Below are positions 2,244-57,447 of a stretch of 57,447 nt of DNA, in pieces (within the stretch, counting starts at the first letter, position 1; the number at the start of each line of letters is the position of its first letter). The notes under the pieces are model-generated. The model did not search any database and was not told where the DNA came from. It saw nothing but the letters and a program-made list of their open reading frames with translations. Made by a program: the position numbers and the translations under genes. The DNA comes from a virus. Location: the IMG/VR virus record IMGVR_UViG_3300012931_000003, positions 1 through 57,447 of that record; one strand, given 5' to 3'.

Positions 2244-2546
2244 ATGGACGACACGTTTGAGTTGATAAAGAAAGTAGCAGAGTGGCTTGACTCACTCGGA
2301 GTAAATCCGGTAAAGGTTGCAGGAATAATATTCCTAATGTGGGGTATAAAATCAGCAGACAAAAGAAAGAAGCTTAAGCCATTCTATGTGCTAATGACCA
2401 TGATCCCAGGCTCTATTGTATGTCTAATTACTGATAAATTCTCAGTAAATACGTGGGTACTCGACACGATAGTTCACTCTGCTGCTGCATCATTCTCATA
2501 CGCGATATGGGCTGCTGTATGGAAAGATAGAAAGAAGGAGAAATAA
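2244..2546 (+). CDS. Holin-like membrane protein
   Basis: 100 residues with three possible hydrophobic segments (about 24-36, 48-64 and 72-92) and a highly charged tail (WKDRKKEK), a shape shared by many phage holins. It directly follows the putative endolysin gene and its stop codon TAA shares a base with the ATG of the next gene. Holins form lethal holes in the inner membrane that release or activate endolysin. No sequence family is recognised; the call rests on size, topology and context. Confidence 0.6.
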   Translation: MDDTFELIKKVAEWLDSLGVNPVKVAGIIFLMWGIKSADKRKKLKPFYVLMTMIPGSIVCLITDKFSVNTWVLDTIVHSAAASFSYAIWAAVWKDRKKEK

Positions 2547-3040
2547 TGTGCTCGAAAAACTTAAAAAAACTGCATTCATTTGTGGCCTTATTCTTGCTGG
2601 TATCATTATCGGCGTCATTCTCTCAGGCGCCTACTCAGGAAAAAATGTACGAGATCTCAGAGACAGACTTACTACGGTTACTGTGGATCGAGACTCGCTC
2701 AGGAGAGATCAACGCAGAGCTACAGAAAGCGCACGATCTGTCTATCGCGAAGTTAGGGAGCTTGCAGGAGGAGTTGCAAGCGCTACGCTTAGAGCTGAAC
2801 GAGCTGAAAAAGAAGGTGGAGAGCTTAGAGAAATCATCGTCGGAAGCGGTGGAAGCATCGCTGAAAGCGGAAAACTCTCTGAGGAAGCTAGAGGAATCCT
2901 TCGACGCGTATATGAAAGCGGCGGAAAGTAAAATAAAAGAGTTGGGCAAGAAGGCTTTTTTGTACAAGGTCCTAGCGTTTTTACTTGGAGCTGCTGCGGC
3001 TGGATTGGCCGCACATGACGCTCTAGAAGATGCGTTCTAA
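2546..3040 (+). CDS. Secreted/anchored coiled-coil protein, spanin-like (outer frame)
   Basis: 164 residues. An N-terminal signal-like segment (hydrophobic ALFLLVSLSASF, possible cleavage after SQA) is followed by about 90 residues of strong heptad pattern (LQEELQALRLELNELKKKV) and a C-terminal membrane segment (FLYKVLAFLLGAAAAGLAA). Start ATG 2546 overlaps the holin stop; AAGGAG at 2535-2540 serves it. A second long frame (2548-2931) lies inside this gene, recalling nested Rz/Rz1 spanin genes, but there is no lipobox cysteine here. It may span the periplasm during the final lysis step; alternatively it is an unrelated coiled-coil membrane protein. Confidence 0.6.
   Translation: MCSKNLKKLHSFVALFLLVSLSASFSQAPTQEKMYEISETDLLRLLWIETRSGEINAELQKAHDLSIAKLGSLQEELQALRLELNELKKKVESLEKSSSEAVEASLKAENSLRKLEESFDAYMKAAESKIKELGKKAFLYKVLAFLLGAAAAGLAAHDALEDAF
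2548..2931 (+). CDS. Rz-like i-spanin candidate in an overlapping frame
   Basis: 127 residues starting at GTG 2548, two bases after the ATG of the overlapping frame and served by the same ribosome site. It begins with a short basic stretch, then one clear membrane helix (FICGLILAGIIIGVILSGAY), then a long Arg/Glu-rich coiled-coil region. This single N-terminal anchor plus periplasmic coiled coil is the usual inner-membrane spanin layout. Both overlapping frames look like real proteins, which is rare by chance. If only one is real, I cannot say which from sequence alone. Confidence 0.55.
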   Translation: MLEKLKKTAFICGLILAGIIIGVILSGAYSGKNVRDLRDRLTTVTVDRDSLRRDQRRATESARSVYREVRELAGGVASATLRAERAEKEGGELREIIVGSGGSIAESGKLSEEARGILRRVYESGGK

Positions 3041-27901: not shown

Positions 27902-28336
27902 ATGGCAGACATCAACCATGTAACCATAGTAGGAAGACTAACCAGGGACGCCGAACTCAATTACACAGCCACCGGTCAGCCGGTATGCAAATTTTCCATT
28001 GCCGTTAACCGACAGAGAAAAGAAGGAGATAAGTGGGTCGATGAGGCCAGCTTTTTCGATGTAACCCTATGGGGGAAGCGCGGAGAATCTGTGAACCAGT
28101 ACTTATTGAAGGGTAAACAGATCGGTGTTGAAGGGGAACTTCGCCAGGACCGATGGATTAAGGAAGGTCAGAACCGATCCAAAGTGGAAATCATGGCTAC
28201 CAACGTCCAACTTCTGGGCGGTGGAAATAAGGACTCGCAGTCTTCGCCTTCTGCTCAGCCGGAAAAGAGCGCAAACGCGTCGTCAACTGCTAGCGGCAAT
28301 TCCGACGAAGGATTTGCAGACGAAATTCCGTTCTGA
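27902..28336 (+). CDS. ssb: Single-stranded DNA-binding protein
   Basis: 144 residues with an OB fold: NHVTIVGRLTRDAELNYT, FSIAVNR, FFDVTLWGKRGE, GEL near the expected spacings, then a disordered Gln/Ser-rich linker and the acidic tip FADEIPF that binds replication partners. It protects ssDNA during replication and recruits helicases, nucleases and polymerase. GGAGG precedes ATG 27902. First gene of the recombination block. Confidence 0.96.
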   Translation: MADINHVTIVGRLTRDAELNYTATGQPVCKFSIAVNRQRKEGDKWVDEASFFDVTLWGKRGESVNQYLLKGKQIGVEGELRQDRWIKEGQNRSKVEIMATNVQLLGGGNKDSQSSPSAQPEKSANASSTASGNSDEGFADEIPF

Positions 28337-28343
28337 TATTGTC

Positions 28344-28775
28344 ATGCAAAAAAACCGCCGTTATTGCTTGGTAGTAATACTTCCCCAGGTTTCCTTTGAG
28401 AAGCTTGGGGAGATTTGTACTAAATACAATATACTCAATCCAAAAAACCAGAATTACCCAAACGTATCCGACATCATTCGCATGATGCTTTACTACCAAA
28501 TACGTCTAAATAAAGTCAAATGTCTTTCGCCAGTTGATACTTCTCATAGATTCAAGCAGCTTTTAGACTCCATTGGTTTCGATAAAATAGAATTCAAGCC
28601 AATGAAGGATGACATAGGCCGAGATAAATGTGAAGAAAGAAGAACCATAAGAGTTACAGATTACTTGCACGAATCAGTCCTGGCTCTTTCCGATCTCTTG
28701 AAAGTGGATTACGGCGACATTGTAAGATGTTGCGCCGACTTTATTATTACTGCGTATAATGGAGGCATAAAATGA
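28344..28775 (+). CDS. Hypothetical protein
   Basis: 143 residues from ATG 28344 (MQKNRRYCLVVILPQ), the first start after ssb; a longer open reading extends back into ssb and is rejected. Mostly helical with EERRTIRVTDYLHESVLAL. No family. Confidence 0.65.
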   Translation: MQKNRRYCLVVILPQVSFEKLGEICTKYNILNPKNQNYPNVSDIIRMMLYYQIRLNKVKCLSPVDTSHRFKQLLDSIGFDKIEFKPMKDDIGRDKCEERRTIRVTDYLHESVLALSDLLKVDYGDIVRCCADFIITAYNGGIK

Positions 28776-30058
28776 ACCGTGAAGAATATGAGAAGGCTAA
28801 GGCTGCCGACCTAAAGGCTAACAAGATCGTAATAGACAGAGTCCCACCGAACGCCGAAGTTCCAGAAATGTTCATTGAGAAAATTACAAGATTCGAAATC
28901 ACCATGGATAAGCTCTGGAAATACCCGGATGGAAAAAAGCTCGTAACTTTCGGCGGCGGTACTATCATGATGATGCCTTCATTCTCCCAAATGCTTTCCG
29001 AGGCGGGCGGGATAATGTTGAAAGATCCGATAGTTCAAAAGGTGATGTCATATCACGAAATACCTATGCCGAGCGGCATCATCAAGAAGAACCTGTACTG
29101 CTCCCGTGTGGTAGGGAAAATAGACTACAATAAGACCACCGACTCGGGTGCAAAGCATTTCGGTTTTTACGCGAGTGAAATAGATATCGACAATCTTTTC
29201 GCTCGTCAGAACGTGAACGACCTTGAGCTTATTGGCTCAACGAAAAATGGTCGTCCGGTAACCGAAGCTGGTACGCTCTACAACACCGGAAACGAGTACA
29301 AGGACAGCGTTGCTGCTTACAAGGAAAAAATACGCCTGGGCCAACATGCCTACCAGACCCTTATTACGAGGCTTCGCTCTCATGGCGTTGAAAAAGCCCT
29401 CGGAATGGACCACCTAAAAGTTGCAAACGTCGGTGGAGTTATATACATCCAGAGGGTTACCCCTGACGCATCGAATCCAACCGTTAGGAAAATGCTGCTG
29501 GTTTCAGCCGCGAATGATATGACGGGCGGAAGCATACAGCGGCTTATCCCCGGACCGCAGGAGTCATCCGTAGTTTCGGAACCAGAGACAATCAACGTTA
29601 CCGAAAACGATATTCCGGTTACTCAGCCCGTCGAGCCTGAAGAAGAGCTTGACGTTGACGACATCCCCTCCGATGATTTAGATGAAGACGTTCCGCTGTG
29701 GCACGGAGAGGAAGAGCAACCTGCCGATGGGGGGCCACTTAAAACAGCCGTAATTTCCTGGCAGGCTTCCGAGTCGGTAAAGAATCAGATCTGCGCTGAC
29801 TTCATAGACGCCACAATCGATTCAAATGAATCAGAGGAATTCTACAAAGCCGAGATCGAGGCAATAAAACTCCTTGCTGACGGCCACGAAGATGACGGAA
29901 TTGTCGCCATGGCAGATTCAGTAAGGTTCACCAAAACTTACGCGGGCTTCAACGAAACTCAATCAAACTTCGTAAAGGAATCCGTAAGGATAAAAAAAAT
30001 AGTTAACTGTTCTGCTATTTTGCAAAACATTACCGTTTTGGTAAAAGGCAAGAAATAG
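28772..30058 (+). CDS. Unknown protein between ssb and the SbcCD fusion
   Basis: 428 residues, coupled to the preceding gene by ATGA. N-terminal 250 residues are mixed alpha/beta (KLWKYPDGKKLVTFGGGTIMMM). At about 285-330 a long acidic linker (EEELDVDDIPSDDLDEDV) leads to a helical C-terminal part. No family was recognised; context suggests recombination or ssDNA handling, which is inference. Confidence 0.75.
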   Translation: MNREEYEKAKAADLKANKIVIDRVPPNAEVPEMFIEKITRFEITMDKLWKYPDGKKLVTFGGGTIMMMPSFSQMLSEAGGIMLKDPIVQKVMSYHEIPMPSGIIKKNLYCSRVVGKIDYNKTTDSGAKHFGFYASEIDIDNLFARQNVNDLELIGSTKNGRPVTEAGTLYNTGNEYKDSVAAYKEKIRLGQHAYQTLITRLRSHGVEKALGMDHLKVANVGGVIYIQRVTPDASNPTVRKMLLVSAANDMTGGSIQRLIPGPQESSVVSEPETINVTENDIPVTQPVEPEEELDVDDIPSDDLDEDVPLWHGEEEQPADGGPLKTAVISWQASESVKNQICADFIDATIDSNESEEFYKAEIEAIKLLADGHEDDGIVAMADSVRFTKTYAGFNETQSNFVKESVRIKKIVNCSAILQNITVLVKGKK

Positions 30059-30859: not shown

Positions 30860-33800
30860 ATGTATTTCATTCACGCTCCCGAGATTCATTTTTCACCAAG
30901 CAAGGCCAAAGAGTGCCTGTATGCGCTCGAAGAAATGTACTTTCACATAGCTGGAATAAGAGCTAGGCAAGTAGTATCGCACGATCAATCAAATATCTAC
31001 GTCTTCTTTACAGGCGATCTTTACGATCATGCCATGCAGAATACCGACAGGTCAGGCTTCGTAGCTCTCCACAAGGCCCTGGAGAAGATTGCGTCGATCG
31101 CATTCGTGATATACCAGTACGGAACAAGAAGCAAGCACGACATGGAAGGGAGCTACGAAGTTCTACGCATATACGACAGGTCGGAAGTGCTGAGCGTAAA
31201 CAATCGAACATTCGCTAACGATGAAATATCCGTATTCTCATTTGAAGAGCCGCAGATGTCCGAGTTTCGCGGAGAGTCAGTCGAAGAAATATGGTCGAAC
31301 ATTCAGGCTCACGAGAAAAAGCTGTGCCTGATGGCCGCCGAGTTTTTCAGAGAAAATCCAGGCAAGCGCCACATCCTCATCGGACACGGAGCAGTTCTGT
31401 GCGATGCTACGGTGAACAACCCCGCCGTGGTATTCGGTAACTACCATGTATCAGAAACCGAACTCGCTGAAACCGGCGCCGACATCGCCTTGTGGGGCCA
31501 TCTTCACCAGCCCTACATATTCTCAAAACTCCGTGGTGGGTACACGAGATCCCTAGCTCACAACTACAGCGATTGCGGCTTCCTCCCTGGGTTCTCAGTT
31601 TACGATGATTCGTATGAGGAATCCGTAATAAGGCTCAAGGAGCTTCCGGCTCGTTTCGGGATCAACGTGAACATCCCCGATGACGGCGATCCGGTCATCG
31701 AGCTGAATAAACAGGCGGTAGCACTTCTTTCTTCAGGTGAAAAAGTTGCAATACGGCCGGACGTGAGCATTCCTCACGACATAAACGATTCAACTCACCG
31801 TAACCAAATATCAGAACTCATCCTTTCGAAATATCCTGGAGTTGTTCTTGACGCTCCGAGGATCATCGAAAGAACAGGATCGAAAGTGCGGAACGCTGAT
31901 ATCGCAAACGACACCTCGTACCGAGCGCTTTGCAAAAAAGTTTACCCTGATTGGGACGAAGAAGACCTCTTGGAAATGGACAAGCTTGAAGAGGAAGACA
32001 TCAAGGAAGGAATAATCCCCGTCAAGAAAGAAATCTCGCTGAAAAGTATATCAGCTCGCGGATATATCCCGCTGAAAAACGGTATAGGGTCGGACGAATT
32101 CAGGGTTGACTTCGACCAATACGGCAGATGCGTTCTTGGGCTTGTAGCTCCCGGAGGATTCGGGAAATCATCCACAGGAGATCTCGTATTTCCGCACCCT
32201 GAATGCCTATCTCAGCCAGAGAGCAAAGCGAATCTTTTCTTCCTTCAGGATTCATACATCATCAACAAATTCGACGTTGATGGTCACGACGTAGAGTGCA
32301 AAATCATCGGCGGGCCAGAAGGAAAAGGAGCCGCATATTTCTGCTACGTTGACGGGCAGGAAAAGTGCAAGAAGGGAGTCCGCGAGTATAAGGAAGTAGT
32401 AAACTCCATATTTGGTACCATTCATGAATTCGCGCTTGTTATGTCGAGAACTCAGTTCAAGTTTGCGCGCGTGGTTGATGGGGCTAACTGTAACCCTGAC
32501 ATAAAGTACGCCGCGAACAAGGAAATGAAGGATCTTTACGCTCCACTGTGCGGAAGCGACAAGACAAAAACCATGCTTCGCTGCAAGGCTCGCGCGGACG
32601 AGTTCAAGAAGACTTACGAGCGCCTTGAGCACGAGATATCTGGCATCCGGTCTAGCATAGATAATCTCGTAACATCAACAGGAGACATTAATCTGCTTAC
32701 TGATGAACTTATAGAAAAAGAAGACGATCTGTCAGTAATAAGAGAAGGTCTTGAAATAATAATCTGTAATGGAAAGGACGCAGCCGCAAACATCGAATCG
32801 GCAAGGTCGGCATCAAAGAAAAACGAAGCAGAAAAGGAAAAACGCAGGACTGACATCACGAAGATGTCTGAGCTTTCCGTCAAGGCGGAAGAGTGCTCAG
32901 GAAAGATCAAGGCTCTGTCTGAAAAGTCTCAGAAACTCGAATCGAACAAGAAACTCATAGCAGAGGACGACCAGCGCATAGAGTTCAATTCTTCGAATGA
33001 GTCCTCCGGGGTCAGGAACTCAGAGCTCAGGAACAAGTACGACGCAGAACTAAACGCGTGGAATACGAAGCTTTCATCGGTAAGAACGGAGGTTTCGTCC
33101 AGGAATGATGCTCTCATGGCTAAGTTTAGGGCTGAGTCTTCGAAGGCCCTTGAAGAACACTCAGCGCTTGTCCGTAAGTACAACTCCGATCTTTCAGAAT
33201 GGAACGCAGAGCTTGAGCGAGTGCAATCAGAAGCACGCAAAAAAAACACGTATGAGGCAAAGAAGTACGAAGACGCCATCCGTATTTACCGACAAGCAAA
33301 ACAGTCGGCAGAAATGTCGATCAACGAATCAGAGCACAAGATATCGGTAAACTCTTCATCTTGCCCAAATTGCGGGTATATCAGCCCCGACGCTAAAAAA
33401 ATCATCGAGGATGAGGCTAGAAATATAGAAGCAAAGCGCTCGGAGCTTGCTTCACTTTTTGAGCCTGTTGCTCCGTCCGAAGTCATAGTACCGGCAACCC
33501 TCGACAGGCCAAAACCATTGCCTGTAGCGGAATACGTTGCTCCTGCTGAACCAGTCCTAGAACCTATTCCTGAATCCATAGAAGATCCCAAGCCTTCGGA
33601 GCCTCAGTACGAGCCGGTAGCCCAGGCTATTCCTGCTTCAATCGACCGGGCTTCTGTCTTGCGCGAGATTGAGGAGGCGTCTGGAGCCTCGTCGTCAATA
33701 GCAACACTGGAAGATCTTCGGACTTCCATCAATGATCAGATAGACGAACTCCAGTCCCGAAGGTATGACATCGACGAAAGCGCCGAAGAGAAACTCAGGA

Positions 33801-34492
33801 TGGCCGAGGCTGAAAAATCAAGGCTTGAGACCCTGTATCTTTCAAAGATGTCGGAATCGAAGAGCATGGAATCATCCGTGTCTTCCATAAAGGAAAAAAT
33901 CGCGGCTGCGAAGCAGAGCGAAGATAGCCTCAATGCTCTCAAAAAGAATATGTCAGACAAGTCACTCGAAAAAGAATCGGCTGAGACTCTTCACCTTCGC
34001 TGGAAGAAATATCAGGCAGCCTGGGACCGAAACGGAATACCCGCGCGGTTCGTAGAACTTGCCGCCCCAATGATAGATTCGATGGCGAACGAGATTCTTT
34101 CTCAGTTCTATCCCGACATGTTCATCGAGACTTGCACTACGAAGGAAGATTCAAATGGAGAAACAGCCGACACGTTCGAAGTTATGGTGTATAACACCAG
34201 AGAAGGAACAAAACAGAAACTTTCGTCACTCTCAGGAGAGCAAACAAACTTTGTTCTTTCCGCAATGTTCTTCGCATTCAGAAAGAAGTACGAAGAAAAC
34301 ACCGGTCGCAAGATCAACTTCGTATTCGAGGATGAACAGGATGACCATGTTTCGCTTTTAATGCAGCCTGCGTACTGGAACATGGTGCAATACCAGCAGC
34401 AGCTTGAAAACAAGTTGCGTATATGCACTTCTCACTCTGCCGAGTTCCCGAATAGGATTGAGAACGTGATAGATTTGGAGGCTATGAAATGA
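30860..34492 (+). CDS. Single-chain SbcD-SbcC (Mre11-Rad50-like) nuclease/ATPase
   Basis: 1210 residues. N-terminal phosphoesterase: HAPEIHF (motif I, with Glu where Asp is usual), GDLYD (52-56), GTRSKHD (88-94), GHGAV (175-179), GHLH (213-216). Then an SMC/Rad50-like ATPase: Walker A GGFGKS (432-437), coiled coil, zinc hook CPNC (near 834), second coiled coil, LSGEQ signature (near 1123), Walker B FVFEDEQ (near 1153). In most relatives SbcD and SbcC are two proteins; here one chain carries both. The pair processes DNA ends and hairpins. A Pro-rich stretch near 855-905 interrupts the coil just after the hook. The mRNA start has GGAGG. Confidence 0.88.
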   Translation: MYFIHAPEIHFSPSKAKECLYALEEMYFHIAGIRARQVVSHDQSNIYVFFTGDLYDHAMQNTDRSGFVALHKALEKIASIAFVIYQYGTRSKHDMEGSYEVLRIYDRSEVLSVNNRTFANDEISVFSFEEPQMSEFRGESVEEIWSNIQAHEKKLCLMAAEFFRENPGKRHILIGHGAVLCDATVNNPAVVFGNYHVSETELAETGADIALWGHLHQPYIFSKLRGGYTRSLAHNYSDCGFLPGFSVYDDSYEESVIRLKELPARFGINVNIPDDGDPVIELNKQAVALLSSGEKVAIRPDVSIPHDINDSTHRNQISELILSKYPGVVLDAPRIIERTGSKVRNADIANDTSYRALCKKVYPDWDEEDLLEMDKLEEEDIKEGIIPVKKEISLKSISARGYIPLKNGIGSDEFRVDFDQYGRCVLGLVAPGGFGKSSTGDLVFPHPECLSQPESKANLFFLQDSYIINKFDVDGHDVECKIIGGPEGKGAAYFCYVDGQEKCKKGVREYKEVVNSIFGTIHEFALVMSRTQFKFARVVDGANCNPDIKYAANKEMKDLYAPLCGSDKTKTMLRCKARADEFKKTYERLEHEISGIRSSIDNLVTSTGDINLLTDELIEKEDDLSVIREGLEIIICNGKDAAANIESARSASKKNEAEKEKRRTDITKMSELSVKAEECSGKIKALSEKSQKLESNKKLIAEDDQRIEFNSSNESSGVRNSELRNKYDAELNAWNTKLSSVRTEVSSRNDALMAKFRAESSKALEEHSALVRKYNSDLSEWNAELERVQSEARKKNTYEAKKYEDAIRIYRQAKQSAEMSINESEHKISVNSSSCPNCGYISPDAKKIIEDEARNIEAKRSELASLFEPVAPSEVIVPATLDRPKPLPVAEYVAPAEPVLEPIPESIEDPKPSEPQYEPVAQAIPASIDRASVLREIEEASGASSSIATLEDLRTSINDQIDELQSRRYDIDESAEEKLRMAEAEKSRLETLYLSKMSESKSMESSVSSIKEKIAAAKQSEDSLNALKKNMSDKSLEKESAETLHLRWKKYQAAWDRNGIPARFVELAAPMIDSMANEILSQFYPDMFIETCTTKEDSNGETADTFEVMVYNTREGTKQKLSSLSGEQTNFVLSAMFFAFRKKYEENTGRKINFVFEDEQDDHVSLLMQPAYWNMVQYQQQLENKLRICTSHSAEFPNRIENVIDLEAMK

Positions 34493-34701: not shown

Positions 34702-34988
34702 GATTCATTCTGACTGACAAGCAGCGCGATGTGCTTGACGAAATAAAAAGAATAAAGCTTACAGGTCGAGAACCTACAATTCTCGGCCTGTCAACTAAGT
34801 TCAAAATATCTCGATCCTCCATTAAATCTCATTGCAGGGCAATATGCGATAAGGGGTATATGCGAATGGAGATGGTTGAGATAGCTACCAGGGGAATTCC
34901 GTCTAAGTTGAAATTCACTGTGCTTGAAGAAAGCCTTGCTATGGATATAGTAAGAAAAATGAAGGATGGAAATAATGGGAATGGGTAA
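34698..34988 (+). CDS. Winged-helix DNA-binding protein
   Basis: 96 residues. LTDKQRDVLDEIKRIKLTGREPTILGLSTKFKISRSSI (written in parts: LTDKQRDVLDEI then ILGLSTKFKISRSSIKSH) matches the LexA-like winged-helix-turn-helix opening. No peptidase domain, so not a full LexA. Probably a regulator. Confidence 0.7.
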   Translation: MRFILTDKQRDVLDEIKRIKLTGREPTILGLSTKFKISRSSIKSHCRAICDKGYMRMEMVEIATRGIPSKLKFTVLEESLAMDIVRKMKDGNNGNG

Positions 34989-35571
34989 GCCTTACGCATC
35001 ACGCAAGCCAATGTGGGAACATCCAGAATCAGACTTCTATGAGACTCCATATTCGCTAATATGGGAGCTTGCAAATCATACAGACGAGCTAAAAGGATTT
35101 TCAAAATTCAGAGACCCTTGCTGCGGAAAACACAATATTAAAACATCATTAGAATCAAGTTCTCTTGACAAAATATTCGATGTATCAGAAGACGACCTAA
35201 GCATAAATGGATACGACTTCCTTGACGACGAATCAAAGCACGGATTCATAATATCAAATCCTCCATTTTCACTTTTCGATGAATTTGTATTTCACGCAAA
35301 GGCTGTATCAGAGAAGGTAGCTTTCATTGGAAGGCCGGACGCATTCGGAGCATACAAAAGAAATGACGCAGGTCTGTGGAAAAATCTAAAATCATGCTAC
35401 ATCTTTGACAGAAAAGTTGACTACCGTACCCCTCATAGAGAAGACGGGTTGTTTCACGTTGGGGCTATGGTGACGTGCTGGCTTATATGGGATATGTCAT
35501 ATAAAGGAAAGCCATCTCTTGAAGTATTGCGAGTCAACAAATACGCTAAACTTGGTCCGTTCGAGGAGTAA
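34975..35571 (+). CDS. N6-adenine DNA methyltransferase-like protein
   Basis: 198 residues. FRDPCCGKHN resembles the SAM-binding motif I (D/FxGxG) and ISNPPFSLFDEF contains the NPPF catalytic motif of N6-adenine methyltransferases; FIGRPDAFGAYK follows. Short, as in phage versions without a recognition domain. I favour ATG 34975 (AAGGATGG upstream); ATG 34966 is possible. Methylation would protect phage DNA from host restriction. Confidence 0.8.
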   Translation: MGMGKPYASRKPMWEHPESDFYETPYSLIWELANHTDELKGFSKFRDPCCGKHNIKTSLESSSLDKIFDVSEDDLSINGYDFLDDESKHGFIISNPPFSLFDEFVFHAKAVSEKVAFIGRPDAFGAYKRNDAGLWKNLKSCYIFDRKVDYRTPHREDGLFHVGAMVTCWLIWDMSYKGKPSLEVLRVNKYAKLGPFEE

Positions 35572-35573
35572 TT

Positions 35574-36092
35574 ATGCCAATAACTAAATGGACAAAAGAT
35601 GATGCAGAATGGTTGTCTAAGATTATGATAATGTTCTCAAATGGAGAAATAACCACTCTAAGCGAAACTCAAAAAAAGAGATTTGATCTTTACGCAAAAA
35701 GGATAGCTTCTTCTGCTGTTAAGATAAAACCTCGCTCTGCAAAAAACAAGGGTGCTTCCTGGCAGAAGGATGTAGCCAGAGAGTTGTCCGAAATAACAGA
35801 AGTTCCATTCGACAACCAGAGCGACCAGAGCGAGATCCTATGCAGGACTATGGGGTGTTCTGGAAACGACATCATCCTGCGCGGAAAGGCCCTTGAGCGC
35901 TTTCCATTTGGAACGGAGTGCAAGGACCAGAACAACGTATCGCTTCCAGACTGGTGCCGTCAGGCTGCTTCAAATGAAATAAACGGAAAATGGATGCTGT
36001 TCATAAAGTCAGCACTTTTGGATGAGCCTATCGTTGCATTCCCAATGAGACTGCTGAAGGAATACTTCAAGAAAGAATTTGGGAGGTGGTGA
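35574..36092 (+). CDS. PD-(D/E)XK nuclease-like protein
   Basis: 172 residues. NKGASWQKDVARELSEI, TMGCSGNDIILRG (catalytic Asp), FGTECKDQNN (ExK) and WRQAASNE-like WCRQAASNE match a phage family of putative Holliday-junction-resolvase-like PD-(D/E)XK proteins. It likely cuts branched DNA during recombination or packaging. Starts two bases after the methyltransferase stop. Confidence 0.75.
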   Translation: MPITKWTKDDAEWLSKIMIMFSNGEITTLSETQKKRFDLYAKRIASSAVKIKPRSAKNKGASWQKDVARELSEITEVPFDNQSDQSEILCRTMGCSGNDIILRGKALERFPFGTECKDQNNVSLPDWCRQAASNEINGKWMLFIKSALLDEPIVAFPMRLLKEYFKKEFGRW

Positions 36093-41102: not shown

Positions 41103-42254
41103 ATGGTTAAGTATAAGGAAGACGAGACAGTTTTTATAACATCTCAGTACGAGGAGAAGCCGTCTCCTTCCGTTGACCTTGATATTATAAACTCAGTCCC
41201 AATGTCTGCGGCAAATAAGAAAAGATTCGATATAGTTTCCAAAAACGATACTGAGCCATTTGAATTTGTGCAGGCAATAAAGTTTGGAGAAAAGTATCCG
41301 TGCCAGGGAATTCCAATTGGCGCTACTTTTTCTAAGTCTTGGGCTGATAGTTATGCAGACAAAAGCAACAGGGTTTTAATACCTGGATCTGCATTCGGTC
41401 ACGTAGCAGATGAAGCCTCCTGGAAAATGCAAAGGGCAAAAAATCAGCTATATGTAACAGGAGCAAAGGTAATCGGAGAAGATACTTTGCTTTTGAGACA
41501 TTACGTTTCCAGGGAAATGGATGAGCACGAATACAATCTTCTTATAAAAGAAATAAAAGCTGGCCTACTTTCAACTTCTATATACGAAAGGACCAAATAC
41601 GAGGTTTCTATTGACGAGAAAAAAGGTACTGAAAAACTAGTAGCAATAGAGTCTCTTGGAAGGCAAAGAAATGATTTAGTGGAATGGGACCAAACCGGAA
41701 TGCCAAGTAAATTGATGGCGACTTCTCAGAAGGCGTCCATTGAGAATAATCAAGAACAAGGAGAAGCCAGTATGACACATTCCGAATTGATTGCGGCTCT
41801 CAAGGCGTCAATCGTCGAGAACCGTACCGATCCGTTGAGTGTCGTGAAAGACCTCGGGCTGGAAATCTCCGTCATGACTGCGGAAAACAAGGCGGATCTC
41901 GACCGCTTCACCGCTCTCAAGGCGAAGGTCGAAGACCCGGAATCATTCATCGCCACCAATCTCTCAGCTCAGGGCGAAGCATTCAAGACCCTGAAAAACG
42001 CGGCCATCGAAACTGAGTTCGGAAAGAGCAAGGATCTCAAGGACCTCGCGCTGGACATGTTCCAGATCAAAACCGGAGGGCAGAAAGAGATCAACGCCGA
42101 GATCGAGCGCATCAAGGGGCTTGAGTCTGTGAAGACTCTTGCCGCGAAAAACGCCGATGGCCGTGACGGAAAGATCGTCGAAGGCTCAACCCAGACGAAG
42201 AGCATCTTCGATAAAAAAGAAACGTTGATCGTCGGGAGGAAGTCAAATGGCTAA
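41103..42254 (+). CDS. Prohead protease-scaffold fusion-like protein
   Basis: 383 residues from ATG 41103, eight bases after GGAG. Residues 1-220 look like a phage prohead protease (GIPIGATFSKSWADSYA, LLLRHYVSREMDEHEYNLL, LLSTSIYERTKYEVS). Residues 224-383 are helical and charged like a scaffold. The DNA changes from AT-rich to GC-rich codons exactly at the internal ATG 41772. Such nested protease/scaffold genes are known (lambda C/Nu3). The protease assignment is by general pattern and position; active residues are not identified with confidence. Confidence 0.7.
   Translation: MVKYKEDETVFITSQYEEKPSPSVDLDIINSVPMSAANKKRFDIVSKNDTEPFEFVQAIKFGEKYPCQGIPIGATFSKSWADSYADKSNRVLIPGSAFGHVADEASWKMQRAKNQLYVTGAKVIGEDTLLLRHYVSREMDEHEYNLLIKEIKAGLLSTSIYERTKYEVSIDEKKGTEKLVAIESLGRQRNDLVEWDQTGMPSKLMATSQKASIENNQEQGEASMTHSELIAALKASIVENRTDPLSVVKDLGLEISVMTAENKADLDRFTALKAKVEDPESFIATNLSAQGEAFKTLKNAAIETEFGKSKDLKDLALDMFQIKTGGQKEINAEIERIKGLESVKTLAAKNADGRDGKIVEGSTQTKSIFDKKETLIVGRKSNG
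41772..42254 (+). CDS. Predicted internal-start scaffold protein
   Basis: 160 residues, in frame with the protease gene. AAGGAG at 41758-41763 lies eight bases before ATG 41772, and codon use becomes GC-rich from here. Long helices (SLVVKDLGLEISV-like DPLSVVKDLGLEISVMTAE). A free scaffold in many copies would guide capsid assembly and be cleaved by the protease. Predicted from sequence signals only. Confidence 0.6.
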   Translation: MTHSELIAALKASIVENRTDPLSVVKDLGLEISVMTAENKADLDRFTALKAKVEDPESFIATNLSAQGEAFKTLKNAAIETEFGKSKDLKDLALDMFQIKTGGQKEINAEIERIKGLESVKTLAAKNADGRDGKIVEGSTQTKSIFDKKETLIVGRKSNG

Positions 42255-43158
42255 GATCGTACAGCATCTTTTCGGTCAGAACGTCGCCGCCATGGAGGCC
42301 CGCATCGAAACGGAAGCCCTCTATGACGCGCTGAATAGCGGCGACTTCATCATCGACATCTACGACGCTGGGAAGGGCGGCGTGTGCCGCGCTCCTTCGA
42401 AAAACAAGTGGGGCGGATCGGTAAATGCACCGGTCCCTGAAGATCCTCGCCCGTATGGATTCTACGCGTCAGTTGAAGGACAGACCGGCGACGTGGTCCT
42501 GTTCGTCAACGACGACAAGACGACCGAAGTGGGAACCGGGTCATTCGCTTACGGCGACCCCGTATACGCAACCCCGGCAGCGAGCCTCAAATGCACCATC
42601 GCGGACACCGCGAGCGTTGGGTCATACTTCATCGGCACCGTCGAAGGCCCACTCCAGACCGCCACGGTGGACGGAAGCACCTACAAATACGTGTGGGTTC
42701 GCCTGCGGAAAGAAGGCGTCGGATTCGCCTCGGTCAACAAGATCGCGTCGGCGGTTCTATCGGGGACTGCCATCGCGGGCGGCGTCGGTGAAGCGGCAAT
42801 CGTTACGGGCGGCGAGACGATCATAATCACGCTCACCGGCGACACCTGGGCCACGTATGACGGTACGGCTCTGTATCTGATCGCCACGGCGGATAAGCTC
42901 ATCGACGGTCTCGCTCACGTTTCCGGCACAGACGATCTGGCCGACATCAAGACGGCCCTCAAGGCTGCTTGCAACTCAACCGACAATACGGCGGTTATTC
43001 GCACGAGCGCTACGGTCATGACGATCACGCTTCCTGCGGTTGCCGGATACTCCATCGCCGCCGACGAGGAAATTTCACTCGAAATAGACGCCGATCTGCT
43101 CGTTTCGACGACCACACCGCTCGCCTCTTCGCCGCACATCACCGTGACGGCTGCGTAA
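42247..43158 (+). CDS. Head decoration-like protein
   Basis: 303 residues starting eight bases before the scaffold stop, behind GGGAGGA. N-terminal 130 residues (EGQTGDVVLFVNDD, VGSYFIGTVEGPL) resemble lambda D-like decoration domains; the rest is Thr/Ala-rich beta, perhaps Ig-like. GC-rich codons as for capsid. Placement between scaffold and capsid supports a capsid-surface role. Confidence 0.65.
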   Translation: MAKIVQHLFGQNVAAMEARIETEALYDALNSGDFIIDIYDAGKGGVCRAPSKNKWGGSVNAPVPEDPRPYGFYASVEGQTGDVVLFVNDDKTTEVGTGSFAYGDPVYATPAASLKCTIADTASVGSYFIGTVEGPLQTATVDGSTYKYVWVRLRKEGVGFASVNKIASAVLSGTAIAGGVGEAAIVTGGETIIITLTGDTWATYDGTALYLIATADKLIDGLAHVSGTDDLADIKTALKAACNSTDNTAVIRTSATVMTITLPAVAGYSIAADEEISLEIDADLLVSTTTPLASSPHITVTAA

Positions 43159-43170
43159 AGGAGAAGAAAA

Positions 43171-44316
43171 ATGAGGATCATCGACAAGCATTTCGACGTT
43201 CCAGTAACCATGCAGGGAGAGCGATCAACTATCTCCGGCATGGAAACCATAGCCCTTTTCAAGGACTATGCGTCCGCGATGAAGGGCGGGGCACTTTCAC
43301 AGCAGGCTCTCGACGGAGCGAAAGAATTCGTCGGAGACAGTTTCATCAGGATTTCAGGCCAGACAGAAACCCTTCCGGCCGACCTGTACGATCAGCTTTC
43401 TACCCTCGACCCGACTTGGAAGCCGTACATCATCGACTTCACGCGAACCATCGCCATGCGGGAGAAGGTGTATCAGCCGATCTACGAAACTATGGAGTCA
43501 CCAGACTTCGATGAAACCATGAAGACCATCGACTTCACCGGTTTCTCATCGTTCGCATACACCAAATGGATCGACGGAGCCGCCGTTCTCATGAACACCT
43601 TCCGAGAAGGCGAGAGTGATTCCGTTACCCTCCAGATCCACGCTGGCGGTTACGTCCGAACTCTGCGCGACAAGCTTTTCAATAAGCGCTGGCGCCAAGA
43701 AAAGGTTGCTCGTGCTCAGGCTCAGGGCTACAACGACTTCCTCAACCACTTGTACCTAGGCCCGATCCTGAAGGCTTCGTACACGGGGAAGACGGTCGTC
43801 GTCGGCGACGTTGACGCAACTCAGGCTACTACGTGGTGGGCGAAGAACTGGTCCATCATGAAGCTCGCCAAGGATGCGTACTTCACCGCGAAAGACCCGC
43901 TCGATCAGCCGTTCGAAACTCCGATCCTGATGATGAACAAGGCCACGTACATGACCGCGTTCTCCGACACCCTCGATGCCATCAACTTCGCAGACAGTAA
44001 GAGGTACGCCTCAATGCGAGGATGGTGGAGCGGAATCGTGATTTACGACGGTGCTACCGTTGACTTCGACGGAAGGCCGGTCGTGTATCCGAAGCCTGCT
44101 GACGGAGAGGTCTACATGATCTCACCGAAAACCGGCTTCAAGGAACTCATCAAACAGCCTCTCACTATGGTTACTTCACCCGGCGACGCAAACCACCTGA
44201 GCGAACAGACTCAGGTCTGGTGGGACTGCCGAGGAATCATCTGCGCCGCTGACGACTACGGCGTGAAGATGACCCTCATCATGGCGAGCGACACCACGAA
44301 CGGAATCGCTGCCTAA
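43171..44316 (+). CDS. Major capsid protein
   Basis: 381 residues behind AAAGGAG. MRIIDKHFDVPVTMQGERS..., with HK97-like order of a helical N-arm, a central GGYVRTLRDKLFNKRWRQEKV stretch and a C-terminal beta-rich region. GC-rich codons, position after the decoration gene and a terminator right after the stop all fit the most abundant virion protein. Confidence 0.8.
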   Translation: MRIIDKHFDVPVTMQGERSTISGMETIALFKDYASAMKGGALSQQALDGAKEFVGDSFIRISGQTETLPADLYDQLSTLDPTWKPYIIDFTRTIAMREKVYQPIYETMESPDFDETMKTIDFTGFSSFAYTKWIDGAAVLMNTFREGESDSVTLQIHAGGYVRTLRDKLFNKRWRQEKVARAQAQGYNDFLNHLYLGPILKASYTGKTVVVGDVDATQATTWWAKNWSIMKLAKDAYFTAKDPLDQPFETPILMMNKATYMTAFSDTLDAINFADSKRYASMRGWWSGIVIYDGATVDFDGRPVVYPKPADGEVYMISPKTGFKELIKQPLTMVTSPGDANHLSEQTQVWWDCRGIICAADDYGVKMTLIMASDTTNGIAA

Positions 44317-57200: not shown

Positions 57201-57447
57201 TTAGAAAGTCTGCTGGAGCTGGGCCAATATTAATGGAGGGCGATTTTCAGTATAAGATTGATTATGATATAGCCATTACTGATTTTTATGAAAGGACCAT
57301 ATCGGCAACGTCGAGAGACTGGCGTGGAGTCGCGTGGTCTCCGGAACTTGGGTTGTTTGTGATGACCGCATACGGCAGTACTGTTTGTGCAACATCCCCA
57401 GACGGAATAACATGGACTGAAAGGACCATATCGGCAACGTCGAGAAA
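54227..57447 (+). CDS. Tail fibre/tip protein, N-terminal part (continues at base 1)
   Basis: 1073 codons open to the window end; ATG 54227 follows the previous stop directly. Residues 1-500 are beta-rich and hub-like. About 512-592 is a fibronectin type III-like domain (WYISWIGTADSYLVEYKR, SGTEYLFRIYSVL). A helical stretch with repeated Ala/Ser follows. From about residue 1019 the 43-residue propeller repeats begin and run across the contig junction into 1-840. The whole molecule is about 1435 residues and is the prime candidate for host recognition. Confidence 0.88.
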   Translation, partial: MIVAKLYTVNKEFIDAVPCVSLKWTRQSNKEYTFTVEFSSKPPDNFYYVVCIDQDSSIKFIPSGYVASSSSDTEFTMNSWETALESEGWIPDDWEWWDSKLLSTVIADHCYGFRKIGCAGLSQLEAAVSTSQVQMAEIDDGNGSVYLDTYGYFVESSETEIAYYSSGYAIYKIEIPDEARRSGMVLRWSDSVGTTTDISVQFRWSDSATDYSGEYTTEESPARSDNVNPNETVGIDIPESSLAYLFVKFNLKYDSGEDGENYENEITTEDDIVYYGKTPLLSAFEVIYRVATSVVPGTITVDATQTLTADIHDKSDLLESLKAIAEAYDISFLCTIDSEGEISLNAYSDYGDNIRDTAGCLSDIKNATVSDKTETLDIYEGCHCFGSGDGIDRLYAFVKMDGVDVPKRITTFEDDDITSISDLQTAGSEYLEDENSVSSTVAFEYYGTPLVSLHDNVAISVLGTVYENKISEESITCDDNGVSTRKYTIGTKAYPFRKLYGYSFSGTYLKTPVSPSCVTTKEVDGTWYISWIGTADSYLVEYKRSDATVWSRTTVTTNYCIVSNIVSGTEYLFRIYSVLDGLLSIASTTVSTAGNSEDQLTPDEKTQYRIDWVKIASEVSVYDALAIEYGMTEEKTAYDTSFANLANYLNGGTTWVSGIPLWLSDDQLNTTTIIDYDVWTSMWTSYSNSLIALEEAIRLLFSISISITSKSAIRNRAGIISPSAISVSAIKSDGSVYSGRFIISGTPDGITYVDLYSSTTDESTKLYNIPLKLTIESVEYYSLAIRIRLYKSGGTSIKLAEDSCIISLSQDTTPIYFGSMNSAPTTGLELVNDYYFDSNLVGNGGGVIRYYNGSVWVEATTSWAMYANAVSSAMTDMMVWVGSTGGTIAAANAVFESIVASSAFINKLSTANQYSAQMCDDGITPRMEIDWDNAVATFRSGDQEYITKITENKIIAYEGAGLARRSVSIESGSVNWYNSPDGGIDELIGRLFRKSAGAGPILMEGDFQYKIDYDIAITDFYERTISATSRDWRGVAWSPELGLFVMTAYGSTVCATSPDGITWTERTISATSR
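57332..57447. repeat. Contig-end overlap identical to 1-116
   Basis: The last 116 bases equal the first 116. The overlap falls inside the 129-bp repeat array but keeps the reading frame, as expected for a circular (or circularly permuted) assembly whose ends were not trimmed. Because it lies in a tandem repeat, the number of repeat copies at the junction could be miscounted by the assembler. Confidence 0.9.

Follow-up and report, generated by a model that had tools for sequence, protein, structure and literature searches.

Proteins with an N-terminal Mre11 and a C-terminal Rad50 domain have been described from Mimivirus, a Bacillus phage, plasmids and cells (Yoshida et al. 2011; PMC3175470). 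The published set contains Mimivirus R555, Bacillus phage 0305phi8-36, a Clostridium kluyveri plasmid, a Deferribacter megaplasmid and others, and repeated fusion in viruses was already proposed in the same paper. Our literature search found no later papers on phage fusions. Here we analysed a viral genome (hereafter 'the window', i.e. the whole stretch of 57,447 nucleotides) in which a sequence-only reading had placed SbcD and SbcC on one frame of 1210 residues. The gene and its junction are as follows:

30860..34492, plus strand: whole fused ORF, SbcD-like and then SbcC-like, 1210 aa; a stop-free frame and the sole such gene in the genome
31886..32041, plus strand: linker joining both halves (residues 343-394); in frame and stop-free, with one ATG lacking a convincing ribosome-binding site

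The single frame was borne out. It starts with the ATG at 30860 behind the Shine-Dalgarno sequence GGAGG, runs uninterrupted with zero internal stops to the stop codon at 34490-34492, and overlaps at its end with the next gene, which begins at 34489. GC content by codon position was steady throughout the ORF, at about 0.5, 0.35-0.4 and 0.55. A missed frameshift at the junction is unlikely, because of this steady composition and because the only in-frame ATG in the junction region has no convincing ribosome-binding site. An assembly or sequencing artefact that fused two neighbouring genes might be suspected, as the nearest relatives are two separate genes and the source record is a metagenome-type contig. 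We consider such an artefact highly improbable, however, since the codon-position GC does not change across the junction, the stop-free linker keeps the frame without a convincing second ribosome-binding site, and independent fusions of the same order are present in many contigs. The protein belongs to the fusion class of Yoshida et al. (2011), with both domains on one chain and Mre11 first.

The nuclease half contains the following features:

30860..31885, plus strand: Mre11/SbcD-like phosphoesterase and cap-like region (residues 1-342); Pfam PF00149 above cut-off; plasmid SbcD-like proteins can be aligned as far as about residue 342
30881..30889, plus strand: motif I, E8-I-H10, with Glu where those aligned relatives that cover the site have Asp
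31013..31018, plus strand: motif II, G52-D53, invariant across the alignments
31121..31141, plus strand: motif III, GTRSKHD (residues 88-94), with the Asn ligand absent; relatives have GNHD, GTPNHD or GTFSHE
31385..31387, plus strand: motif IV, H176, invariant in the alignments
31496..31507, plus strand: motif V, GHLH (residues 213-216), retained in the alignment

The first 347 residues passed the gathering score of Pfam Metallophos PF00149 (24.9 versus 21.5 bits, with residues 5-218 matched), and a profile of the SbcD half built without the window sequence recovered the fused ORF with an E-value of 2.8e-8. His10, Asp53, His93, His176, His214 and His216 were all retained. The sequence-only reading had noticed one changed metal ligand. 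The Glu-for-Asp exchange in motif I stood, but it is not the single change: the Asn of motif III is missing as well, such that two of the seven metal-ligand positions are altered and the set of motif I-V ligands is incomplete. In motif III a Lys precedes the His, and the profile alignment treats this Lys as an insertion. The motif reads GNHD in canonical SbcD, GTPNHD in the gut-phage fusions and GTFSHE in pairs of genes on Burkholderiales plasmids; the loss of the Asn is, judged from these alignments, partly common to the plasmid pairs.

The ATPase half and its arms contain the following features:

32042..32554, plus strand: N-terminal lobe of the SbcC/Rad50-like ATPase (approximate), from alignments
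32147..32170, plus strand: Walker A/P-loop, APGGFGKS (residues 430-437), from alignments and positions
32561..33358, plus strand: outgoing helical arm (residues about 568-833), from low-confidence AF2 secondary structure and its location before the hook
33362..33373, plus strand: CPNC zinc-hook-like motif (residues 835-838), read from the sequence; phage SbcC proteins have CPxCG at the aligned position
33461..33628, plus strand: Pro-rich stretch (residues 868-923), with 15 Pro in residues 866-925; relatives align without a matching insert
33647..34021, plus strand: returning helical arm (residues about 930-1054), from low-confidence AF2 secondary structure
34226..34243, plus strand: signature motif, SLSGEQ (residues 1123-1128), from alignments
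34319..34336, plus strand: Walker B, FVFEDE (residues 1154-1159), with the LD of the D-loop missing afterwards, from alignments
34430..34435, plus strand: H-loop, S1191-H1192, from the alignment

The SbcC-like profile phrog_77 matched residues 661-1205 with an E-value of 1.1e-27, and a profile of the SbcC half built without the window sequence recovered the fused ORF at 5e-33. Walker A, signature, Walker B and H-loop, by which Rad50/SbcC proteins are recognized, are all present, as is a CxxC hook between long helices, the latter predicted at low confidence. The sequence-only reading had reported all SbcC motifs, and it was right for the P-loop, the DE of Walker B, His1192, the SLSGEQ signature and the CPNC hook. 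It did not hold for the D-loop, where alignments show DDHVS instead of LD, and the Q-loop alignment is doubtful.

Sequence and profile evidence thus place an Mre11-type and a Rad50-type domain on a single chain. Fold comparison agrees: Mre11/SbcD structures occupied PDB ranks 1-6 in a Foldseek search with the AF2 model of the N-terminal part, and the full-length model matched Rad50 and SbcD. These matches give weak support, because confidence in the models, built from a thin alignment, is low (mean pLDDT of 45.5 and 48.5) and the input alignment contained fused relatives.

The Pro-rich insert near the hook, called unusual in the sequence-only reading, was confirmed, and the relatives that we aligned do not have it. 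It sits in the returning coiled-coil arm. From conserved anchors to the hook, the window protein counts 282 residues on the outgoing side and 220 on the returning side, versus 282 and 264 in the gut fusions. By textbook rises (about 3 A per residue when extended), i.e. by arithmetic rather than from a measured structure, the extended Pro-rich stretch would reach ~170 A versus ~155 A for ~100 missing helical residues. The stretch could therefore bridge the distance that some 100 missing helical residues would cover.

Relatives were searched at several levels. As single queries, the window protein found zero relatives in IMG/VR and genome contigs, and its C-terminal part and the window's terminase found zero in IMG/VR. 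Likewise, no phage sequence matched the full-length protein in tblastn at 1e-5, and a search with alignment A5 over viral contigs gave zero matches. The top-scoring relatives of both halves were separate genes on Burkholderiales plasmids, from Polaromonas for the SbcD half and from Robbsia and Caballeronia for the SbcC half. A fused ORF was present in the GenBank gut-phage fragment MT837445 (L015). With this fusion as lead, 18 IMG/VR loci were obtained, and their alignment in turn led to 62 genome-contig loci, mainly from Clostridia, and to 53 IMG/VR loci. The homologue search that the sequence-only reading had proposed thus returned many cases of the same fusion, as a single ORF of >1100 aa was found in about 57 of the 62 genome-contig loci and about 43 of the 53 IMG/VR loci (counted by hand from the locus list, including a few ORFs cut by contig ends). 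From their likeness to viral contigs, we take the genome contigs with fusions to be putative prophages. L148, a candidate distant fusion, was rejected, as it is actually a split pair.

Most phages had been said to use two genes, and the named phages that we inspected indeed have separate genes. The rarity of the fusion that this implied was not supported: single-chain SbcCD has been known since 2011 (PMC3175470) and is common in gut phages and prophages, particularly those of Clostridia. The window protein is an unusually diverged example.

In trees built from concatenated conserved parts, the window protein was placed on a very long branch (4.8-5.8) beside the plasmid pairs and Leptospira phage LE1. 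In the wider-sampled tree, the split pair L148 also grouped near it. It did not fall in one clade with the gut-phage/Clostridia fusions, a placement that calls for long-branch caution. Forcing the window and gut fusions together cost 10.3 log units (p-AU 0.044), and 21.8 log units with wider sampling (p-AU 0.0016). As judged from these sequences, the window fusion probably arose separately from the gut-phage fusions. A separate fusion is favoured but unproven, because the branch is so long that its placement is unsafe. Descent of both from one event, to which we give a low probability, would fit the identical domain order, the unsafe placement and the shared GT insertion in motif III, although the split plasmid pairs have this insertion too. 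Against a single event are the poorer one-clade trees at both levels of sampling and the best scores of the Burkholderiales split pairs for both halves.

The phage genome is probably complete, because it carries an exact 116-base direct terminal repeat (positions 1-116 and 57332-57447). It encodes a large terminase subunit, a portal-like protein, a tape-measure protein and a DnaB-like helicase. Profile searches found no second SbcD in the window; the only other SbcC-profile match (2531-3037, 169 codons, 1.1e-4) covers a coiled-coil part, and no second full SbcC was found. Two neighbours of the fusion are as follows:

27902..28336, plus strand: single-strand DNA-binding protein (SSB), upstream of the fusion; Pfam SSB 9.4e-32
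35574..36092, plus strand: resolvase-like or PD-(D/E)XK-like nuclease, downstream; phrog_244 6e-9, PF24608 2.3e-5 (slightly below cut-off)

Several of the related gut loci likewise have an SSB gene close to the fusion. Between SSB and fusion, a gene on the plus strand (28772-30058) encodes a protein of 428 aa that had no Pfam, PHROG or tblastn match, and for which neither phage records nor the genes that precede the plasmid pairs gave a convincing match (phmmer E of 0.023 at best for the latter). Its location would suit a putative recombination partner. The plus-strand gene at 34966-35571 encodes a short adenine-methyltransferase-like protein (phrog_799, 3.7e-29), perhaps reduced, with 201 aa versus a profile of 458 positions. 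Two plus-strand genes at 42247-44316 have a GC content of 0.55-0.60 (0.72 at the third position) versus 0.38-0.40 in the portal and tape-measure genes; given this contrast, the genome is mosaic.

Most likely, the protein tethers and processes DNA ends during phage recombination or replication. An SSB gene precedes it and a gene for a resolvase-like nuclease follows it on that strand; these neighbours, together with T4 gp46/gp47 biology (reviewed in PMC3175470), point to DNA-end processing in recombination-dependent replication or repair. Two chains would assemble the head typical of such enzymes, with two nuclease and two ATPase parts, the fusion fixing a 1:1 ratio of SbcD and SbcC. ATP binding would clamp DNA ends, the arms and hooks would tether them, and ATP hydrolysis would gate the nuclease. 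Trimming of terminal or branched DNA would then start recombination-dependent replication or repair. An origin in anti-phage defence was considered and rejected; the weak matches to AbiEi and LmuB (E 0.0018-0.0049) were in coiled-coil parts alone.

With two of seven ligand positions differing and the D-loop lost, catalysis may be impaired, and these same changes suggest that tethering may outweigh cutting. In a more extreme version, the nuclease half would have lost all or most of its catalysis, leaving a protein that serves chiefly as an ATP-driven DNA tether or as a scaffold that binds DNA ends. The Glu in place of the motif I Asp, the Ser-Lys arrangement in place of the motif III Asn and the lost D-loop would agree with this, yet the six retained nuclease residues stand on a very diverged background, which suggests that selection is still acting on the site, and the Asn is also absent from the plasmid pairs, so its loss is not unique. 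We consider this version rather unlikely. Our preferred reading, held with some confidence, is a phage single-chain SbcCD (Mre11-Rad50) enzyme whose fusion is probably separate from those of the gut phages. A bolder and doubtful extension is that this separately arisen protein has a nuclease site either rebuilt (motif I Glu, motif III Lys) or silenced, and an asymmetric arm in which an extended Pro-rich strut of ~56 residues spans ~100 helical residues of the return. If true, the strut would make a tether other than a plain coiled-coil hairpin.

Single-chain Mre11-Rad50 proteins would simplify the study of ATPase-nuclease coupling, and tractable candidates exist, given how abundant such proteins are among the phages and prophages of Clostridia. 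What the window contributes is probably a separate fusion event, together with natural variation at sites (metal ligands and D-loop) that hardly vary among the aligned relatives.

Compared with known systems, the window protein is extremely diverged; two of its metal-ligand positions are altered and its arm is unusual. Like the fusions of Yoshida et al. (2011; PMC3175470), it has Mre11 N-terminal and Rad50 C-terminal on one chain in a mobile element or virus. Metal ligands are often altered in that set, including the ligand residues of R555, as they are here. One P-loop segment and the cap/HLH part are described in that paper as missing from the Bacillus phage fusion, whereas the window protein has a P-loop and a cap-like region. 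The gut-phage and Clostridia prophage fusions (MT837445, L019-L142) share the domain order, a similar length (~1280 versus 1210 aa), arms and conserved head, but are about 21% identical. They differ from the window protein in having D-[LW]-H in motif I, GTPNHD in motif III, a canonical LD D-loop, a CP-x5-C hook instead of CxxC and no Pro-rich stretch. The diverged Burkholderiales plasmid pairs (L012-L014), a metallophosphatase and an SMC-family ATPase, have the cap-like region in common with the window protein and likewise lack the motif III Asn (GTFSHE). In contrast, they are two genes with one or two small genes in between, and have the motif I Asp and no CxxC hook, where the window protein is fused and has Glu and CPNC. 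The L012 and L014 pairs are preceded by a Gp3-like gene (PF18897). Finally, the SbcD and SbcC of Herelleviridae and T4-type phages (gp47/gp46) resemble the window protein in the phrog_77 match (1.1e-27) and the CxxC hook, but differ in their separate genes, canonical motifs and longer P-loop region (SNGSGKS).
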